This document shows positions 41,720 to 64,000 of a DNA stretch of 64,000 nucleotides, piece after piece (the stretch's first letter is position 1; each line of letters opens with the position of its first letter). The notes beneath the pieces were generated by a model, which saw only the letters and a list, made by a program, of their open reading frames with translations, was not told where the DNA came from and searched no databases. The DNA is from Polaribacter sp. MED152 (GTDB lineage Bacteria; Bacteroidota; Bacteroidia; Flavobacteriales; Flavobacteriaceae). The stretch lies in the NCBI RefSeq assembly GCF_000152945.2, contig NC_020830.1, positions 496,001-560,000 on the forward strand. The letters run 5' to 3'. Position numbers and translations under genes: made by a program.

Positions 41720-41882
41720 AAAAAAAGCCTACATTAGTTGGTTTTTTTTAAACTCCATAATGACATATATAGGACTAACTAACTGTTCAAGGATCCACTC
41801 AAGGTGGCTTGCTTTAGTAGTTAAGACTCATCCTTCATAATAGAATAGTGTTGAGTTTAATAAACAATTACTAACGTAGGCA
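41720..41882 (-). ncRNA. ssrS: 6S-like RNA (6S-Flavo type)
   Basis: The intergenic region encodes on the minus strand an RNA of about 155-160 nt whose ends pair: GCCTACGTTAG with CTAATGTAGGC (11 bp, one G-U), then TTAAACTC with GAGTTTAA (8 bp). A T-run follows the 3' arm, as in a terminator. Inside there is a large unpaired section and an inner arm (AAGGAT/ATCCTT enclosing CCAC/GTGG). A rod with a central bubble directly downstream of zapA is what 6S RNA looks like; in E. coli ssrS also follows zapA. 6S RNA binds the housekeeping RNA polymerase holoenzyme. No separate promoter is obvious, so it may be processed from the zapA transcript. Confidence 0.7.
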
Positions 41883-54952: not shown

Positions 54953-55285
54953 CTAAAATCTTCTTTTTTCTTCTTCTTTTTCTAAATAAGCTTGTATTTT
55001 TCTTTCTTCCCAGTTTTTATCAAACCCTAAAGATTTAAAACCGAAAACTCCCATCCAATGAAAGAAGATTCCAATTCCCCAGAAAATCCAAGTTGAATAT
55101 ACACCAAAATTAGAAAATGCATCTGTTATTGAATAATTACTTTGCAGTAAACCAAAAATAATTATACCACTTAAAAATATATTTACAAGTACATAGACTA
55201 TAGCATGAATGTAAAACCCTTTAATGGCTTTAACTCGTTTTTTAGCTCTCATGTAGTTTTGCTCTTGAATAAATTTATTGTCCAT
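54953..55285 (-). CDS. 2TM-domain protein
   Basis: The 110-residue protein contains one 2TM domain: an amphipathic start AKKRVKAIKGFYIHAIVYV, two membrane helices, a GIFFHWMGVFGF turn and the end GFDKNWEERKIQAYLE. Such domains are common in flavobacteria and lie beside LytS/LytTR pairs; function unknown. It is 10 nt before the LytTR gene. Confidence 0.85.
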   Translation of the reverse strand: MDNKFIQEQNYMRAKKRVKAIKGFYIHAIVYVLVNIFLSGIIIFGLLQSNYSITDAFSNFGVYSTWIFWGIGIFFHWMGVFGFKSLGFDKNWEERKIQAYLEKEEEKRRF

Positions 55286-55290
55286 AAATC

Positions 55291-55857
55291 TTAACTCATT
55301 TTATTTATAAATTCTTGAATCTTTTTTTCTTCCCAGTTTTTACCAAAACCTAATTTATCAAATCCAAATACACCAAACCAATGAAAGAATAAAGCAATAC
55401 AAATACCAGCAACAGCATACCAAAAGAAATAAAAATCGGGCACAAATTGTAAATTAACTAGCACTATAATAAATACTGCAAGAATAGAAACTCCAAAATG
55501 TACATAAAAACCTTTTATTTCATTGACCTTCTTTTTGGTTTTTAAATAATACTGTTCTTGAATAAATTCTGATTTATCTTCATGATCTTCTAAAACTTCA
55601 TTTAGTTTCTTAGCTTCCCATTCATCTAAAAATTGTGCAGAACCAAATACATAAAACCAATGTATAATTAAGCCTACAAACCAAGCTGCTATTGCAATCC
55701 AAAACCAGTGAAATTGAGGTGCTGTTTGTAAATTGATAAACACTAAAAAAGGCGGAATAATAAATGTAGCCACTAAATGCGTATAGAAACCTTTAATCTC
55801 CTCTACTCTTTTTGCTGCCTTTAGTCTAAGCTTATGGTTGTTTGATTCGATATTCAT
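55291..55857 (-). CDS. Tandem double 2TM-domain protein
   Basis: From the ATG at 55857 the 188-residue protein carries two 2TM modules in a row (AAKRVEEIKGFYTHLVAT ... DEWEAKKLNEVL, then KKVNEIKGFYVHFGVS ... GKNWEEKKIQEFI). The upstream ATG at 55881 would run into the previous gene; the 55857 start follows that gene's stop by 1 nt. Four membrane helices in total. No known activity. Confidence 0.8.
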   Translation of the reverse strand: MNIESNNHKLRLKAAKRVEEIKGFYTHLVATFIIPPFLVFINLQTAPQFHWFWIAIAAWFVGLIIHWFYVFGSAQFLDEWEAKKLNEVLEDHEDKSEFIQEQYYLKTKKKVNEIKGFYVHFGVSILAVFIIVLVNLQFVPDFYFFWYAVAGICIALFFHWFGVFGFDKLGFGKNWEEKKIQEFINKMS

Positions 55858-55858
55858 G

Positions 55859-56182
55859 TTAAAAGTTTTTATTTTGTTCATCTAAATATTGCTGTACTTT
55901 TCTTTGCTCCCATTCTTTGTTGAACAACAAGCTAATGCCAAAAGTATTAATTGCTTGAAAGGCAATACCAATTCCCCAATAAAACCAAATTTTGTAATTA
56001 TGATAATTGTAAAATGCTTGGCTAAATGTGTCCCCATCATTCATATCACCAACTATAAATATTGCCGATAAAAATGTGTTTACAATAAGATAAACCGCTA
56101 AATGCTTATAGAATTTACCTATTTTTTCTATACGTTTACGAGCCAAAATATACTTTTGTTCTTGTGTGTATTCTCTTTCCAT
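55859..56182 (-). CDS. 2TM-domain protein
   Basis: The 107-residue protein holds one 2TM domain (ARKRIEKIGKFYKHLAVYLI ... FNKEWEQRKVQQYL). Its ATG overlaps the kinase stop (TAATG), so translation is coupled. It belongs to the same operon as the LytS-like kinase. Confidence 0.85.
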   Translation of the reverse strand: MEREYTQEQKYILARKRIEKIGKFYKHLAVYLIVNTFLSAIFIVGDMNDGDTFSQAFYNYHNYKIWFYWGIGIAFQAINTFGISLLFNKEWEQRKVQQYLDEQNKNF

Positions 56183-57552
56183 TATCTTAATCTTTTTTGT
56201 TGATTTTCTTTATCCATCATTTCTTTAATCTTTCTTTCTTCCCAATTTCTCCCTAAGAATATATTATAGTTATTTACTTCTAAGAAGTGGAATAATAAGC
56301 CTATTCCCCATCCAAAAGCTGGAAACCAAAACCAGTAAAAACCTGGCGAGAATCTTAAATTGATAAATATTAAAAATGGTATTACTAAACAGTATGAAGC
56401 CAAATTTTGATAAAATTCTTTTAATTTTTCTACTCTTTCTACTGCTTTTACGTATTTGCTATTTTCTAAATCTTCTGTAAACATAATTTCGTTCATTTTA
56501 TATAAGAGAGGTAAACTCACCTTAAATGTTTTATTGTAATTTTCTATTCTAACCCCCTTTTTGGTTAATAAACCATACCTATCTGCAATATTTTGTAAGC
56601 CTACTTTGGTGCTTTTACCTATTGCTTCTTTTGGGTTAATGTTATTTTCTATAATTAAAAAACTACCTTCTTGATATATAGTTATGGTTAATGGTTTAGA
56701 AGGTGAAACCACATTGTGTTTTACTGCATTCTCTAACAATAGTTGTAAAGATAAAGGCACAATCTTTAATGCTGGATCTTTAACATCTTCTGGAATATTA
56801 AACTTCACAGCCTCTTCAAATCGCATTTCTAGCAATTGCATATAGGTTTTAGCAAACTTCAATTCTTCAGAAATTGGTACTAAATCTTTATTTCTTTGCT
56901 CTAAAACATATCTATAAACCTTAGATAGTTTTGTGGTAAATTTTTCTGCTTGATATGGATTCTCGCCAATTAAACTGGTTAATACATTTAAACTATTAAA
57001 TAAAAAATGTGGATCTAATTGATTTTTTAGTGACTCAAACTTTGCAGTTTCTGTTTTGGCTACAATTTGTTGTTTGGTACTTTCTTGTTTTACCGATTTT
57101 TTCCATGCAATCATAAATCCTCTAGCATGCAAAAATGCTGATACTCCAAAAGATAAAATGATGTAGAAAATGTGCATCAATAAGTAATTACCACTAAAAA
57201 AATAATCGGGATTATTTTCATTGATGATTATAAAATTCACATAATCAATTAAAAGAACTACAGGAATTGTATATAGTATCGTAGAAACTATACCTGCCCA
57301 AACTCTGGTATTTGTATCCTCTACCCAAGACCATTTTTTACTAAGAGCGTGATTAATTACACCTTGTGCAAAACCTAATCCAAAAGAATACATAGCAGAA
57401 ATCAAAAAGGTGTAAGCAATATTTAATATGCTAAAATTTTGGTTGATTAAAGTAAAAACTACTGCAAAAATGATAGTAATTTTTAAACTTACAGAAACAC
57501 CTTCTTTTATATTGCTTCTTACTATTCTGCTATTTGTATTCATACTTGGCAA
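56182..57552 (-). CDS. LytS-like histidine kinase with C-terminal 2TM domain
   Basis: The 456-residue kinase has about four membrane helices (20-145), the His_kinase motif LKNQLDPHFLFNSLNVLTSL (His182) and a HATPase region (LQLLLENAVKHNVV, KVGLQNIADRYGLL). From about 353 a 2TM module is fused at the C terminus (AVERVEKLKEFYQNLASY ... GRNWEERKIKEMM). The fusion ties the kinase to the stand-alone 2TM proteins encoded next to it. It starts near MNTN or MPSMNTN; both are possible. Confidence 0.88.
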   Translation of the reverse strand: MPSMNTNSRIVRSNIKEGVSVSLKITIIFAVVFTLINQNFSILNIAYTFLISAMYSFGLGFAQGVINHALSKKWSWVEDTNTRVWAGIVSTILYTIPVVLLIDYVNFIIINENNPDYFFSGNYLLMHIFYIILSFGVSAFLHARGFMIAWKKSVKQESTKQQIVAKTETAKFESLKNQLDPHFLFNSLNVLTSLIGENPYQAEKFTTKLSKVYRYVLEQRNKDLVPISEELKFAKTYMQLLEMRFEEAVKFNIPEDVKDPALKIVPLSLQLLLENAVKHNVVSPSKPLTITIYQEGSFLIIENNINPKEAIGKSTKVGLQNIADRYGLLTKKGVRIENYNKTFKVSLPLLYKMNEIMFTEDLENSKYVKAVERVEKLKEFYQNLASYCLVIPFLIFINLRFSPGFYWFWFPAFGWGIGLLFHFLEVNNYNIFLGRNWEERKIKEMMDKENQQKRLR

Positions 57553-58230: not shown

Positions 58231-58238
58231 TACATTTG
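58231..58238 (+). promoter_or_regulatory. -7 promoter box of the arginine operon
   Basis: TACATTTG matches TAnnTTTG. Transcription from about 58245 would give a leader of roughly 195 nt before the first structural gene, containing the candidate leader ORF. The -33 region is not a clear match. Confidence 0.5.
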
Positions 58239-58260
58239 TCACATAATCTTACTATATATT

Positions 58261-58362
58261 TTGATTAAACAACATTACATATCAGCAATTTTAAATTTTA
58301 CTCCTAGTAGTAAAATTGCTTTTGTGCGTCGCTCTTTCTCTGAGCGCCCTTTGGGTGTTTAA
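58261..58362 (+). CDS. Candidate arginine leader peptide (uORF)
   Basis: A 33-codon frame starts at TTG 58261 and stops at TAA 58360-58362; an internal GTG at 58324 would give a 12-residue version, MRRSFSERPLGV. The last part contains three arginine codons (CGT, CGC, CGC), while this genome mostly uses AGA for Arg. It lies between the predicted promoter and the first gene of an arginine biosynthesis operon, and overlaps alternative hairpins. This is the arrangement expected for ribosome-mediated attenuation, but translation is not shown and no clear T-run terminator follows, so the mechanism is open. Confidence 0.4.
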   Translation: MIKQHYISAILNFTPSSKIAFVRRSFSERPLGV

Positions 58363-58441
58363 TAATTCTTAGGAATTAGGTGCGTCCAATTCCACACTTC
58401 AAAACTTTACAAAATAATTCAAACCTTAACAAATCAATACA

Positions 58442-59059
58442 ATGCAAATTGTTATTGCAAATAAATCGCATATTATTTATGCCAACATCATCTGCGAAAC
58501 TATAGCTGAAGCTGCTAAAGTTAGAGGTACAGGTATTGCTAAAAGAAAACCTGAATATGTTGCCAAAAAAATGGAAAATGGTAATGCTGTTATCGCTTTA
58601 GATGGCGATAATTTTGCTGGCTTTTGTTACATAGAACAATGGGGTCATGGAAAATTTGTAGCCAATTCTGGTTTAATTGTTCATCCTAATTATAGAAATA
58701 TTGGTTTAGCAAAACAGATTAAAGAAGTCATTTTTAAACATTCTAGAACCAAGTTTCCAGATGCAAAAGTATTTAGCATAACAACTGGTCTAGCTGTTAT
58801 GAAATTAAATAGCGATTTAGGTTACAAACCAGTAACCTTTTCTGAATTAACAGATGATCAAACCTTTTGGAATGGCTGCCAAACCTGCAAGAACTTCGAT
58901 ATTTTAACAAGAACAGAAAGAAAAATGTGTTTGTGTACAGGAATGCTTTTTGATCCTAAAAATCAAGATGAATCAGAATCAAAAGAGGTTAAAGAAAACG
59001 TATTTAAAAGATTAAAATCAATGAAACAAAATCTGTTTCTAAAAAAAGATAAAAAATGA
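58442..59059 (+). CDS. GNAT acetyltransferase heading the arginine operon (putative N-acylglutamate synthase)
   Basis: The 205-residue protein has a GNAT domain (about 1-140; GLIVHPNYRNIGLAKQIKEVIF is the acetyl-CoA-binding motif A). The C-terminal part has Cys146-x2-Cys149 and Cys163-x-Cys165, which look like a metal-binding site. A stand-alone GNAT at the head of argGC in Bacteroidota is the usual candidate for the first step, acylation of glutamate, since classical ArgA or ArgJ is absent from this stretch. The stop overlaps argG (ATGA). Confidence 0.75.
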   Translation: MQIVIANKSHIIYANIICETIAEAAKVRGTGIAKRKPEYVAKKMENGNAVIALDGDNFAGFCYIEQWGHGKFVANSGLIVHPNYRNIGLAKQIKEVIFKHSRTKFPDAKVFSITTGLAVMKLNSDLGYKPVTFSELTDDQTFWNGCQTCKNFDILTRTERKMCLCTGMLFDPKNQDESESKEVKENVFKRLKSMKQNLFLKKDKK

Positions 59060-60231
59060 AAAAATTAGTTATTGCTTACAGTGGTGGTTTAGACACTTCT
59101 TATTGTGCTGTAAGTTTATCGAAAGAATTCGAAGTACATGCAGTAAGTGTAAATACAGGTGGTTTTACTGAAAATGAAGTTAAAAATATAGAGCGTAATG
59201 CTTATAAAATGGGGGTTACTACTTATAAAAATATAGATGCTGTAGCTACCTTTTACAATAAGGTTGTAAAATATTTAATTTTTGGTAATGTATTAAAAAA
59301 TGCTACTTACCCACTTTCTGTGAGTGCTGAAAGAATTATACAAGCTATAGAAATCATTGAATATGCTAAAAGTATAAATGCAGAATATATTGCTCATGGA
59401 AGTACAGGTGCAGGAAATGACCAAGTTCGTTTTGATATGATTTTTCAAACGCTTGCTCCAGGAATTAAAATTATTACACCAATCAGAGATCAAAAATTAT
59501 CTAGACAAGAAGAAATTGATTATCTAAAAGCTGAGGGCATAGATATGAATTGGGAGAAATCAAAATACTCTGTAAACAAAGGTCTTTGGGGAACTAGTGT
59601 TGGTGGTGTAGAAACTTTAGAATCAGAAAAACCATTACCTAGTGAGGCTTATCCTTCTCAATTGATAAAAGAAGGTGAAGAAAAAGTTACATTGACTTTT
59701 AAAAATGGAGAGTTTGTTGCTTTAAATAATCAAGAAAATGCTCCTGAGGTAAATATCGAAAAGTTAAATGAAATTGCTTCTAAATACGCAATTGGTAGAG
59801 ATATTCATGTTGGAGATACAATTGTTGGTACTAAAGGTAGAGTTGGTTTTGAGGCAGCTGCTGCACTAATTGTGGTAAAAGCTCATCATTTATTAGAGAA
59901 ACACACCCTTACCAAATGGCAATTACAACATAAGGAATATCTGTCTAGTTTTTACGGAATGCACTTGCATGAAGGACAATATTTAGACCCTGTAATGAGA
60001 GATACTGAAGCCTTTTTGCAAAGTTCTCAAAAAATGGTTTCTGGTAATGTAGTTGTTACTTTAAAACCTTATCACTTTACACTAGATGGTATCGTTTCTA
60101 AACACGATTTAATGTCAAGTAAGTTCAGTACTTATGGTGAAGAGAATAAAGCTTGGTCTGCAGATGATGCAAAAGGTTTTATTAAGATTCTTGGTAATCA
60201 AAACAAAATATATCAACAAGTAAACTCATAA
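59056..60231 (+). CDS. argG: Argininosuccinate synthase
   Basis: The 391-residue enzyme condenses citrulline and aspartate with ATP. The P-loop AYSGGLDTSYC opens the protein, followed by AHGSTGAGNDQVRFD (aspartate and AMP site) and KYSVNKGLWGTSVGG. Length and order are normal. It is coupled to the upstream GNAT by a 4-nt overlap and to argC by a 2-nt gap. Confidence 0.95.
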   Translation: MKKLVIAYSGGLDTSYCAVSLSKEFEVHAVSVNTGGFTENEVKNIERNAYKMGVTTYKNIDAVATFYNKVVKYLIFGNVLKNATYPLSVSAERIIQAIEIIEYAKSINAEYIAHGSTGAGNDQVRFDMIFQTLAPGIKIITPIRDQKLSRQEEIDYLKAEGIDMNWEKSKYSVNKGLWGTSVGGVETLESEKPLPSEAYPSQLIKEGEEKVTLTFKNGEFVALNNQENAPEVNIEKLNEIASKYAIGRDIHVGDTIVGTKGRVGFEAAAALIVVKAHHLLEKHTLTKWQLQHKEYLSSFYGMHLHEGQYLDPVMRDTEAFLQSSQKMVSGNVVVTLKPYHFTLDGIVSKHDLMSSKFSTYGEENKAWSADDAKGFIKILGNQNKIYQQVNS

Positions 60232-60233
60232 TT

Positions 60234-61211
60234 ATGTTAGAAGTAGGTATAATTGGTGGTGCAGGTTACACAGCAGGTGAATTAATACGTTTATTATTAA
60301 ATCACCCAAAAACAAATATCAATTTTGTGTTTAGTACTTCTAATGCTGGCAATAAATTGTATAAAGTTCATCAAGATTTAATAGGAGCTACAGAAATTAG
60401 TTTTTCAAGCGAAATAAATGCTGATGTAGATGTATTGTTTCTTTGCTTAGGACATGGAAATTCAACTGCTTTTTTACAAAAAAACAGCTTTTCAAAAAAT
60501 ACAAAAATTATAGATTTAAGTAATGATTTTAGATTACTTGACGATAAAAATTTTGAGGGTAAAGAGTTTGTTTATGGTTTGCCTGAGTTAAACAAAAAAG
60601 CAATTCAATCTACTAATTACATTGCGAATCCCGGTTGTTTTGCTACAGCTTTACAGTTGGCTATTTTACCTTTAGCTTCTCATGGATTATTAAAAAATGA
60701 TGTTCATATTAATGCTGTAACTGGTGCAACTGGTGCAGGAACGTCATTAACTGCAACTACGCATTTTACTTGGAGAGACAATAATTTTTCCCATTACAAA
60801 GCATTTAATCATCAGCATTTAGGCGAAATAAACCAAACAGTTCATCAGTTACAATCTGATTTTAAAAGTGAGATAAATTTTATGCCAAATAGAGGCGATT
60901 TCTCAAGAGGAATTTTTGCGACTACATACACAAAATGTGATGAACCTCTAGAGGAAGTCATAAAAATGTATGAAGCGTACTATAAAGATGCTGCCTTTAC
61001 ATTTGTTACCAACCAAAATTTATTTTTAAAACAAGTGGTGAATACCAACAATTGTTTTATTCAACTAGAAAAACATGGTGAAAAATTATTAATCACTAGT
61101 ATGATAGATAATTTATTAAAAGGAGCTTCTGGTCAAGCCATTCAAAACATGAATTTGATGTATGGTTTTCAAGAAGATACAGGTTTAAAATTAAAGGCAA
61201 ATTATTTTTAA
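60234..61211 (+). CDS. argC: N-acetyl-gamma-glutamyl-phosphate reductase
   Basis: The 325-residue NADPH-dependent reductase has the dinucleotide motif GIIGGAGYTAGELIRLLLNHP, the catalytic Cys in NPGCFATALQLA, and VTGATGAGTSLTATTHFTWR. It belongs to the shorter ArgC type. It lies between argG and proC, followed by a 100-bp gap with a repeat-like hairpin. Confidence 0.94.
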   Translation: MLEVGIIGGAGYTAGELIRLLLNHPKTNINFVFSTSNAGNKLYKVHQDLIGATEISFSSEINADVDVLFLCLGHGNSTAFLQKNSFSKNTKIIDLSNDFRLLDDKNFEGKEFVYGLPELNKKAIQSTNYIANPGCFATALQLAILPLASHGLLKNDVHINAVTGATGAGTSLTATTHFTWRDNNFSHYKAFNHQHLGEINQTVHQLQSDFKSEINFMPNRGDFSRGIFATTYTKCDEPLEEVIKMYEAYYKDAAFTFVTNQNLFLKQVVNTNNCFIQLEKHGEKLLITSMIDNLLKGASGQAIQNMNLMYGFQEDTGLKLKANYF

Positions 61212-61229
61212 GCCCTGCAAAAGCTTTAC

Positions 61230-61250
61230 ATACTGAACTTGTTTCAGTAT
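61230..61250. repeat. REP-like hairpin between argC and proC
   Basis: ATACTGAA and TTCAGTAT pair around CTTGT. The core CTGAACTTGTTTCAG resembles a dispersed intergenic palindrome I remember from flavobacterial genomes (CATGCTGAACTTGTTTCAGC). It has no T-run, so it is more likely a repeat or an RNA-stability element than a terminator. Confidence 0.5.
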
Positions 61251-61311
61251 CTAATTATTAACAGTTTTAACTTTTGAAAAATTTCAACTTTAAAACTCTG
61301 AAATACAAAAA

Positions 61312-62112
61312 ATGAAAATAGCAATTATAGGTACAGGGAATTTAGGTAAATCAATTGCCAAAGGTTTAATCACCAACAATGCAATTACATCTTTATACTT
61401 AACCAAAAGAAATATTGAAGGACTTGCTGAATTTGATGGATATTCAAACGTCTTTTTAACCATAGACAATATAACTGCAGTAAAAAATTCTGATATATTG
61501 ATTTTTGCAGTGCAACCTGCACATTTTGAAAATATTCTAAAAGATATTAAACCTCATTTAACAGAAAAGCATGTTGTAATTTCTACGATAACCGGTTTCT
61601 TAATTCCGCAAATTGAAGAAGAAATTGGTGCAGATAAATATATAATACGTGCCATGCCAAATACAGCCATTGCTGTTGGTAAGTCTATGACCTGTTTATG
61701 TAGCAATACACAAGGAGAAAAAAGAATACCAATTGCAGAAGCTATTTTTAATAGATTAGGCCATTCTTTAAGTATACCAGAATCTCAAATGCAAGCTGCA
61801 ACTGTAGTTTGTGCAAGTGGAATTGCATTTTGGATGCGTTTAATTCGTGCTACAACTCAAGCAGCTATACAATTAGGTTTTGATGCAAAAGAGGCACAAG
61901 AATTAGCCATGTTTACCAGTGAAGGTGCAGCCAATTTATTGATAACAAATGGCAATCATCCTGAAGAAGAAATTGATAGAGTAACAACACCTAAAGGTTG
62001 TACTATAGAAGGATTGAATGAAATGGAACATAAAGGTTTAAGCTCTTCATTAATTCAAGGTATGGTTGCATCTTTCAATAAAATTAACAATATTAAAAAA
62101 GAACAAATATGA
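61312..62112 (+). CDS. proC: Pyrroline-5-carboxylate reductase
   Basis: The 266-residue enzyme has IAIIGTGNLGKSIAKGLI (Rossmann motif), FAVQPAH, RAMPNTAIAVGKSMT and the C-terminal MFTSEGAANLL / VTTPKGCTIEGLNEME, with the usual family order. It makes proline from pyrroline-5-carboxylate. Its place between argC and argD ties proline to the arginine-pathway operon. Its stop overlaps the argD start (ATGA). Confidence 0.93.
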   Translation: MKIAIIGTGNLGKSIAKGLITNNAITSLYLTKRNIEGLAEFDGYSNVFLTIDNITAVKNSDILIFAVQPAHFENILKDIKPHLTEKHVVISTITGFLIPQIEEEIGADKYIIRAMPNTAIAVGKSMTCLCSNTQGEKRIPIAEAIFNRLGHSLSIPESQMQAATVVCASGIAFWMRLIRATTQAAIQLGFDAKEAQELAMFTSEGAANLLITNGNHPEEEIDRVTTPKGCTIEGLNEMEHKGLSSSLIQGMVASFNKINNIKKEQI

Positions 62113-63233
62113 GTTTATTTAATGTTTACCCTTTGTTCGATATTACCCCAGTAAAAGCAAAAGATGTTTTTGTATACGATGAGAATAATACTCAATATTT
62201 AGATTTGTATGGTGGTCATGCAGTAATATCAATTGGGCATTCGCATCCTAAATATGTAGCTGCAATTTCTGATCAAGTTTCAAAAATGGGATTTTATAGT
62301 AACTCTATTCAGAATCCTCTACAGTCTAATTTGGCAAAGAAAATAGTTTCACTTTCTGGCTGTAAAGATTACACGTTATTTTTATGTAATTCAGGTGCAG
62401 AAGCCAACGAAAATGCTTTAAAATTAGCTTCATTTCACAATCAGAAACATAAAGTTATTGCCTTTAAAAATGGTTTTCATGGTAGAACATCTGCTGCAGT
62501 TGCAGCTACAGATAATCAAAAAATTATTGCGCCTTTAAATGCACAACAAGAAGTAGAAATTTTAGAGTTGGGCGATTTAAAAGGTTTAGAAACTGCATTA
62601 AGAAAGAACGATGTTTGTGCTGTAATCATTGAATTTATTCAGGGTGTTGGTGGTTTAGACCAAAGTACAGCTGAATTTTATGAAGGTGCAGACGCTCTAT
62701 GCAAAAAATACAATACCTGTTTTATAGCAGATGAAGTGCAATCTGGTTTTGGTAGATCTGGAGATTTCTTCGCTTTCCAAAAATTTAAAGTTACTCCTGA
62801 TATTATTTCAATTGCAAAAGGAATGGGTAATGGATTTCCTATTGGCGGAATTCTAATTCACCTAAATATAAAAGCATCTTTTGGTTTATTAGGTACAACC
62901 TTTGGTGGAAATCACCTAGCCTCTGTTGCCTGCACAACTGTTTTAGAAGTGATAGAGGAAGAAAAGTTGATGGAAAATGTAAAGATGATTTCAAAATACT
63001 TTGTTGAGAAAGCCAAAAGCATTCCTGAAATTAAAAATATAAAAGGCCGTGGTTTAATGTTAGGTTTAGAGTTCGATGCACCTATTGCAGACTTAAGAAA
63101 AAGACTAATATTCAATCAACATGTTTTTACAGGGAGTGCAAAGAATCCTAATTTGTTAAGAATTCTTCCTCCTTTAACACTAAAAAAAGAACATGTAGAT
63201 GCATTTTTTGATGCTTTAAAATCTGAGTTATAA
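62109..63233 (+). CDS. argD: Acetylornithine/succinylornithine aminotransferase
   Basis: The 374-residue PLP enzyme of class III has LYGGHAVISIGHSHPKYVAAI, LFLCNSGAEANENALKLA, FKNGFHGRTSAAVAAT, ADEVQSGFGRSG and the PLP-lysine motif ISIAKGMGNGFPIGG. It transaminates the acylated glutamate semialdehyde. It is slightly shorter than the E. coli enzyme. The stop overlaps the next ATG (TAATG). Confidence 0.93.
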   Translation: MSLFNVYPLFDITPVKAKDVFVYDENNTQYLDLYGGHAVISIGHSHPKYVAAISDQVSKMGFYSNSIQNPLQSNLAKKIVSLSGCKDYTLFLCNSGAEANENALKLASFHNQKHKVIAFKNGFHGRTSAAVAATDNQKIIAPLNAQQEVEILELGDLKGLETALRKNDVCAVIIEFIQGVGGLDQSTAEFYEGADALCKKYNTCFIADEVQSGFGRSGDFFAFQKFKVTPDIISIAKGMGNGFPIGGILIHLNIKASFGLLGTTFGGNHLASVACTTVLEVIEEEKLMENVKMISKYFVEKAKSIPEIKNIKGRGLMLGLEFDAPIADLRKRLIFNQHVFTGSAKNPNLLRILPPLTLKKEHVDAFFDALKSEL

Positions 63234-64000
63234 TGAAAAAGTACACTTCTATAAATGATATTTCAGATATCAATGATTGGATAGCTGAAGCCAAAGAATT
63301 AAAAGCAAATCCGCTTCAAAATATCGAAATTGGTAAAAATAAAACCTTAGGATTATTATTTTTTAATTCGAGTTTAAGAACTAGACTCAGCACTCAAAAA
63401 GCTGCATTAAATTTAGGTATGGAGCCTATAGTGATGAATGTTTCTGGTGATGCTTGGGGCATTGAATTTGAAGATGGTACAGTTATGAATGGTTCTACAG
63501 CTGAGCACATAAAAGAGGCTGCTGCTGTTGTTTCTCAATATTGTGATGTAATTGCTGTAAGAGCTTTTCCAAGTTTAACAGACAAACAAAAAGATGAATC
63601 TGAACAAGTTTTAAGCGCATTTGTAAAACATGCTTCAGTGCCTATTATAAGTATGGAAAGCGCTACAGGTCATCCTTTACAAGGCTTAACAGATGCAATA
63701 ACCATATCTGAAAATTGCAAGAAGAAAAAGGTAAAAGTGGTTTTAAGTTGGGCACCTCATATAAAACCTTTGCCACATGCAGTAGCGAATAGTTTTACAC
63801 AAGCTATGCAAAAAATGGATGTTGAATTTGTTATTGCAAATCCTAAAGGATATAATCTTAACAAAGAAATTACAAAGGACACACCTATTTATCACAATCA
63901 AGAAGAAGCTTTTAAAAATGCTGATTTTGTTTACGCTAAAAATTGGAGTTCTTATGAATCTTATGGAGAAATTTTAGATGTTGATGATAATTGGACCATC
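63233..64000 (+). CDS. argF': N-acyl-ornithine carbamoyltransferase, 3' end beyond window
   Basis: The first 256 residues are visible. FFNSSLRTRLSTQKAALNLG is the carbamoyl-phosphate-binding SxRT motif, followed by EHIKEAAAVVSQYCDVIAVRAFP, MESATGHPLQGL and VVLSWAPHIKPLPHAVANS, the pattern of the Bacteroidota/Xanthomonas enzyme that uses N-succinyl- or N-acetyl-ornithine. Residue 90 is Ala; as I recall, Glu there favours acetyl and Pro favours succinyl substrates. It starts at the ATG overlapping the argD stop. Confidence 0.92.
   Translation, partial: MKKYTSINDISDINDWIAEAKELKANPLQNIEIGKNKTLGLLFFNSSLRTRLSTQKAALNLGMEPIVMNVSGDAWGIEFEDGTVMNGSTAEHIKEAAAVVSQYCDVIAVRAFPSLTDKQKDESEQVLSAFVKHASVPIISMESATGHPLQGLTDAITISENCKKKKVKVVLSWAPHIKPLPHAVANSFTQAMQKMDVEFVIANPKGYNLNKEITKDTPIYHNQEEAFKNADFVYAKNWSSYESYGEILDVDDNWTI

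Follow-up and report, generated by a model that had tools for sequence, protein, structure and literature searches.

The window analysed here, a stretch of 64,000 nucleotides from Polaribacter sp. MED152, ends in a run of arginine biosynthesis genes preceded by a gene for a GNAT acetyltransferase. Upstream of the latter lie a predicted promoter box, a short open reading frame (ORF2) with arginine codons towards its end, and three RNA hairpins, designated A, B and C (Table 1). The GNAT protein is perhaps the first enzyme of a succinylated arginine pathway, a role deduced from the position of its gene, and BT3761, as presented in the accessible text of an earlier report (PMC7311316), is a putative candidate for its counterpart. 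Cysteine pairs (CQTC and CLC) are visible by eye near the end of the protein.

Table 1. Features of the arginine leader region and the genes that follow it, in window coordinates
Feature	Position	Strand	Remarks
TACATTTG box	58231..58238	+	Predicted flavobacterial -7 promoter box, read from sequence
Leader ORF (ORF2)	58261..58362	+	TTG start, LIKQHYISAILNFTPSSKIAFVRRSFSERPLGV, TAA stop; 33 codons
Hairpin A	58294..58317	+	Within ORF2, directly 5' of the Arg codons
First two Arg codons	58327..58332	+	CGT (58327-29) and CGC (58330-32), codon positions -6 and -5
Hairpin B	58345..58357	+	CGCCC-TTT-GGGTG; includes the third Arg codon, CGC (58345-58347)
Hairpin C	58372..58393	+	GGAATT-A-GG-TGCGT-CC-AATTCC; bulged A, conserved core GGTGNGTCC
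GNAT acetyltransferase	58442..59059	+	First operon gene; below every NCBIfam cut-off
argG, argC, proC, argD, argF'	59056..64000	+	NCBIfam; several best matches below the curated cut-off; argF' exits the window

Direct reading of the window agrees with a first-pass annotation of the same DNA in the placement of the box, which conforms to TAnnTTTG, the consensus of the flavobacterial -7 promoter box, and in that of the 33-codon frame and the GGAATT/AATTCC hairpin. The three CGN codons near the end of the frame are its sole arginine codons, and the downstream gene order is as described, with NCBIfam matches for argG onward. The remark that the genome mostly uses AGA is likewise correct, since AGA supplies 390 of the 577 arginine codons in 50 window ORFs and CGN 138. 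No clear T run follows the window hairpins, just as had been observed. The exact choice of the ORF2 start codon in the window is uncertain. Hairpin B sits at the end of ORF2, and C follows another 25-30 nt along. The window leader as a whole folds better than its shuffles (z -3.2, with 1 of 200 shuffles equally good), and its sole terminator-like match is hairpin B, which has a poor tail; 0.4 such matches are expected by chance.

Comparison with relatives strongly supports the central proposal of that annotation, namely an arginine-codon leader peptide ahead of the arginine operon. Two collections of upstream regions were assembled, one from a GNAT protein search, of which the best 80 of 126 confirmed loci were taken (L002-L081), and one from a same-genus search, in which 47 of 58 genomes matched and 30 loci, one of them the window, were used. 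Together these provided 110 upstream regions including the window; when their last 200 nt are compared, 103 are distinct, and some genomes are present in both collections. An ORF with CGN-CC at the expected place is found in 101 of these 103 regions, which derive from the best 80 of 126 loci and the same-genus loci. Relatives that lacked the frame or had replaced its arginine codons had been named as evidence that would count against a leader; by the search rule these amount to just two regions, L069, whose leader seems to have decayed, and L107, a variant in which arginine codons can still be read by eye (RRFFLPRLLRV). Over the 23 codons that precede the final CGC, stops occur in 0 of 101 loci in frame 0, in 89 in frame 1 and in 98 in frame 2; because frame 0 was chosen by its end, its stop-free count gains meaning through the comparison with the other two frames. 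Alignment gaps are a multiple of three in 204 of 204 cases inside ORF2, compared with 2 of 629 beyond it. Among codons with a single change, synonymous changes number 114 of 267 in the arginine-rich part, 65 of 284 in the N-terminal part and 19 of 117 downstream, and the N-terminal part is weakly constrained as protein. ORF2 start codons over a set of 129 loci are GTG (48), ATG (44) and TTG (37); this set comprises those of 143 sequences in which both anchors are present, the other 14 having been dropped. What lies between the predicted promoter and the first gene is a conserved short ORF that, to judge from its conservation, is probably translated. The TACATTTG box itself can be seen by eye ahead of ORF2 in L002, L003, L026, L084, L093 and several distant loci. 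As a general claim it is weak, because a TAnnTTTG sequence within 90 nt before ORF2 occurs in 17 of 129 loci, which barely exceeds the shuffle maximum of 16 (mean 7.5).

The arginine codons are enriched and constrained, as would be expected of codons for the end product of an attenuated operon. Counted from the last CGC as position 0, arginine is encoded at -6 in 80, at -5 in 66 and at -1 in 59 of the 101 loci. Its presence at position 0 in 101 of 101 is by construction, since that codon is the search anchor, and is partly explained by hairpin B. From -12 to -1, with the anchor excluded, CGN codons outnumber AGR codons by 235 to 31, a marked departure from the window ORFs, where CGN accounts for the 138 of 577 given above. 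How many of the last ten codons are CGN is itself constrained over the 129 loci, with a variance of 0.78 versus 1.18 +/- 0.14 when columns are shuffled; 3 of 2000 column shuffles were as low, a comparison that ignores kinship. CGN codons swap places while their number stays, as in RPIFRRRP versus RRIFPRRP. The peptide ends RR..F.RRP* in one lineage and RR....RPLGV* in the Polaribacter lineage, and in the RRP* lineages the stop codon falls, by eye, within the loop of hairpin B.

Arrest peptides that act at a stop codon are exemplified by TnaC and the fungal arginine attenuator peptide (AAP). A device of this type, in which nascent RRxFxRRP would sense free arginine and stall at the stop codon, the stalled ribosome acting as the switch, could account for the conserved C-terminal arginines and for the proline directly before the stop in the RRP* lineages. 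The surroundings of the stop are not fixed, however, because the Polaribacter-lineage frame continues past RP (RPLGV* and longer), and in the lineages compared no conserved nascent chain stands at a fixed distance from the stop. The remainder of the peptide varies, its arginines trade places, and the invariant CGCCC, besides being the search anchor, is accounted for by hairpin B. We regard peptide arrest as highly improbable.

The RNA structure around these codons is also conserved, again a property expected of an attenuator. The core of hairpin C, GGTGNGTCC with T or C permitted at two places, is present in 99 of 103 regions, with stems of at least five pairs in 96 of the 99. Pairing between the arms of C scored 639, compared with 486 +/- 15 (maximum 531, n=1000) when 3' arms were redealt among loci. 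In an alignment fitted to the model (93 matches drawn from 95 sources), two-sided changes filled 220 cells, whereas shuffling left 53 +/- 10 and slid controls no more than 75; the fitting leans toward structure, and kinship inflates the shuffle test. By helix, such changes fell on 6 of 6 pairs in A, 7 of 7 in outer C, 1 of 2 in the GG/CC pairs of C and 0 of 5 in B; B lacks covariation evidence because its sequence hardly varies in relatives. An unfitted alignment of 20 sequences, picked for equal spacing, contained 17 two-sided changes versus 5.7. Over the 129 loci hairpin A scored z 1.18, versus -0.36 and 0.28 in flanking stretches, and mean folding energies against dinucleotide shuffles of 81 loci were modest (z -1.2 for A, -1.1 for B plus C). 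RNAalifold on a plain MAFFT alignment missed the outer stem of C because of gaps of 1-2 nt in that alignment, and anchor-based parsing was used instead. The frame, the arginine codons and the hairpins of the leader are confirmed as real and conserved.

Four loci that were compared (L028, L066, L079 and L147) have lost the GGTGNGTCC core together with the -6/-5 arginines while keeping RRP. That the two losses are linked is suggested by this pattern, which probably represents one or two independent events.

These observations bear on two further explanations. One holds that the frame is a functionless product of chance in a conserved promoter region, a reading with which the weakly constrained N-terminal part and the TTG start in the window would agree; given the arm pairing of C, the pattern of frames and gaps, the constraint on CGN number and the covariation, its probability is next to nil. 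The other takes the hairpins as an arginine-binding riboswitch or a protein-binding site to which the ORF is incidental. Hairpin C, with its bulged A, its GG/CC pair and its nearly fixed UGNGU loop, does resemble a binding site, and no alternative pairing is conserved. An open frame, gaps in threes and a constrained CGN count would nevertheless be unexpected of an RNA-only device, and no Rfam family reached its gathering score in the window leader or in 11 relatives, so that this explanation receives very little probability from us. Four sub-threshold Rfam matches in the leader region were taken as chance, and the strict hairpin-C pattern matches no second site in the MED152 genome. Complementarity between AGGTG and the 16S tail was set aside as an explanation, since the base that follows AGGTG is variable.

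The his, trp and leu operons possess the classical leader-peptide transcription attenuators for amino acids. Like these and like a histidine leader in the same genome (see below), the arginine leader is a short ORF bearing codons for the pathway product ahead of a biosynthetic operon. The classical systems rely on a terminator and an antiterminator, whereas the arginine module displays neither an intrinsic terminator nor a conserved pair of that kind. The first-pass annotation had described two mutually exclusive hairpins within the frame. Overlapping registers can indeed be drawn in the window (58285-58293 with 58311-58319, or 58294-58302 with 58309-58317), while conservation of their exclusivity did not hold up: by eye, the closest relatives (L084, L002 and L003) retain at most one of the two intact, and shuffling tests disclosed no conserved alternative partner for C and none between A and C. 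Pairing of the B-C spacer with the 5' arm of C is unsupported (4.02 versus 3.92 +/- 0.07 in shuffles, maximum 4.09), and so are pairings between the 3' arm of C and the sequence beyond it (4.09 versus 4.13) and between hairpins A and C (6.03 versus 6.09). A column association scan was dominated by relatedness and by Arg/Pro swaps between codons, and no long-range pair from it was believed. At least five consecutive T within 14 nt after C occur in just 1 of 129 loci, and over those loci the ORF2 module offers no mutually exclusive terminator and antiterminator with a U tract. Because neither a U tract after C nor a conserved alternative pairing was found, a classical switch is not demonstrated. 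Distant loci that lack the second leader described below do possess at least 8 T in 12 nt further 3' of C, in 21 of 25 cases and at a median of 17 nt past it; no such T-rich stretch is present in the window.

Our preferred interpretation is that the region is very probably a ribosome-mediated attenuator of the arginine operon which would sense Arg-tRNA at the CGN codons; we claim that it works like a leader-peptide attenuator, and do not claim it as a classical one. When charged tRNA-Arg for CGN codons is short, the ribosome would halt at -6/-5. Estimates of reach from ribosome footprint sizes suggest that its leading edge would then lie at about the foot of hairpin B and that, on the upstream side, it would cover the 3' arm of A, while B and C stayed intact ahead of it. 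When arginine is plentiful, the ribosome would reach the stop codon and melt B, and A would refold. Since these distances fix what the ribosome covers, A and B are likely to be read-outs of its position and C a constant effector. The position of the ribosome would set which hairpins RNA polymerase or a nuclease encounters in the leader, and shortage would lead to higher expression of GNAT-argGC-proC-argDF'.

The output in this organism is not a classical intrinsic terminator. We give about an even chance to Rho-dependent or pause-linked transcription attenuation through hairpin C. Rho is encoded, and the stretch before GNAT would suit it, being G-poor (4.0% G in the last 45 nt versus 10.1% before 41 window ORFs). 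We think that this output ranks ahead of mRNA decay, and mRNA decay ahead of translation of GNAT, which had been offered earlier as an example and for which the lack of conserved pairing between the 3' arm of C and downstream sequence is unfavourable.

Control of mRNA decay by a leader peptide would have a model in Salmonella speF orf34, where, according to the accessible text of the report, arginine codons decide whether a hairpin past the stop forms (PMC6386406). Consecutive arginine codons, a hairpin past the stop and the lack of an intrinsic terminator are shared by the two systems to the extent that this text describes them (PMC6386406). The speF case differs in belonging to a polyamine gene, in its peptide and RNA, and in its gammaproteobacterial host (PMC6386406, same text). 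Its gene product makes polyamines and its leader hides its own ribosome-binding site, and no such sequestration is conserved here. Decay as the controlled step is unlikely, though it deserves consideration.

In many relatives a second, further upstream leader accompanies the ORF2 module. This frame, ORF1, is arginine-rich and was found in 95 of 129 loci (for example L052, L005, L021 and L030), its end separated from ORF2 by 27-89 nt; 5 of the 129 offer less than 130 nt of upstream sequence to the search. It has 20-24 codons, begins with ATG (91) or GTG (4), and contains 371 CGN and 104 AGR codons, an arginine content that is partly by construction since CGN codons served to select the frame. 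Applied to dinucleotide shuffles, this rule selected 1.6 loci (maximum 4), and applied to the reverse strand it selected 0; no tRNA was found in 5 loci in which a tRNA was considered as the source of the frame. In 75 of 95 loci the 30 nt ahead of ORF1 contain a TAnnTTT[GA] box, and in 68 of 95, versus 11.3 in shuffles, the box ends 4-5 nt before the start codon; ORF1 therefore probably begins very near the RNA start. The spacer between ORF1 and ORF2 contains at least 9 T in 12 nt in 89 of 95 loci. A long-range stem that joins ORF1 to the bases immediately 5' of this T tract scores above shuffles (13.46 versus 11.88 +/- 0.24). Taken singly, the hairpins near ORF1 are weak (z 0.87 and 0.35), and the folding energy of the whole region has z -1.82 (48 of 95 loci). 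Through the T tract and the long-range stem, ORF1 of relatives may constitute a terminator/antiterminator pair, and it resembles an attenuator of the terminator type coupled in series to the ORF2 module, giving a tandem of arginine leaders. By the same rule ORF1 is absent from the window, L002, L003, L084, L026, L046, L049, L075, L093 and 25 distant loci.

From these data one may tentatively sketch, at somewhat less than even confidence, a two-stage sensor in Flavobacteriaceae: a near-leaderless ORF1 peptide with its T tract, followed by ORF2 with a terminator-free A-B-C arrangement in which C (bulged A, GG-UGNGU-CC) would have a protein, or the transcription machinery itself, as its reader, some lineages, that of the window included, having the second stage only. 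Were this reading true, the second stage would be a new way to convert ribosome position into gene expression. The one-leader and two-leader versions form a natural series, and the system offers a terminator-free attenuator open to dissection together with a conserved hairpin that may have a reader. It would also show control of arginine synthesis in a family without detected ArgR and a class without Shine-Dalgarno recognition.

The ArgR repressor (PF01316) was found neither in the MED152 genome nor in any of the 149 genomes of the family, of which 125 have a completeness of 90% or more; a control search was positive in 9 of 14 well-known genomes, including a Bacteroides. Leader-peptide control probably exists in the MED152 genome, because hisG is preceded by a histidine leader (MTFIQNHHHHFYNCSQAI*, with HHHH; L185 1186-1242) and a strong terminator-like hairpin with a T tract (L185 1274-1309). 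It is in its HHHH run and strong terminator that the histidine leader is unlike the arginine leader. No Ile/Val/Leu leader was seen by eye upstream of ilvD in this genome.

Ribosomes in the class to which Flavobacteriaceae belong fail to recognise Shine-Dalgarno sequences, according to the accessible text of PMC9976891. Published precedents for arginine-codon leaders come from elsewhere. Besides speF, the accessible account of Staphylococcus aureus rbfL describes rare arginine codons that pause the ribosome under arginine shortage; there the paused ribosome blocks the rbf ribosome-binding site, the codons are AGA/AGG and no arginine operon is involved (PMC13009471). The present architecture looks like a new variant of such leaders. 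Two leader peptides in series, like ORF1 and ORF2, are described in the available part of a report on ermB, which senses an antibiotic and not an amino acid (PMC8274638). Within the family, the accessible text on Flavobacterium psychrophilum gives clues for leader-peptide attenuation and does not name arginine (PMC9723704). Of the other uORF motifs listed in PMC8632094, a word search of its accessible text returned none in Bacteroidota, and a survey of 2010, in the part available, records leader peptides as known from Proteobacteria and Actinobacteria and adds Firmicutes (PMC2965389). Our search of the literature on arginine leaders in Bacteroidota, Flavobacteria and bacteria at large, which covered few subscription papers, found no report of the element.

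With a covariance model of the leader (R1), matches at E <= 1 were obtained in 96 of the 149 family genomes, 92 of which have a single matching place. The GNAT gene is present in 98 of the 149; both occur in 92 genomes, GNAT alone in 6 and the match alone in 4. G118 has its match 234 nt ahead of GNAT. We read 40 stretches, picked for missing or weak matches and divergent GNAT. Among the six GNAT genomes without a match, by eye, two show no leader (L149 of G184 and L146 of G126), one has a decayed leader (L150 of G196), two have altered leaders (L145 of G122 and L147 of G167), and one retains a complete leader that ends 199 nt upstream (L148 of G172). The matches without GNAT comprise a genuine leader in G141, a place without a leader in G108, and putative matches in G069 (E 0.90) and G111 (E 0.74). 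In distant members among the 40 stretches, the peptide ends RRRP* or RRRRP*, with hairpins B and C as elsewhere.

In a class-wide sample under strict filters R1 matched 3 of 247 genomes, all three within the family. A broader model, R2, was run across the order, where 38 of 395 genomes gave a match and 35 of these belong to the family. Outside the family, G474 (E 0.04) has a genuine leader ending RRPLGV* ahead of GNAT and argG; the matches in G453 and G805 fall within or next to other genes, have no arg gene in their vicinity and were dismissed as chance. The large genus g128 has an R2 match in none of 19 genomes, among those listed, and its member G184 is the one noted above as having GNAT without a visible leader. 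Downstream of matched leaders, argG is found in 32 of 32 loci and GNAT in 31 of 32. In G141 (L133/L152) and G795 (L214) another gene replaces GNAT, and the leader still precedes argG.

Elsewhere in the window, a 6S-Flavo RNA at 41750-41856 on the reverse strand (Rfam RF01685, 104.8 bits) is the sole match at gathering score. Also on the reverse strand, at 54953-57552, several short ORFs and a histidine-kinase-like gene share, by eye, a repeated two-helix membrane domain, and these genes adjoin one for a LytTR-like response regulator, likewise recognised by eye.
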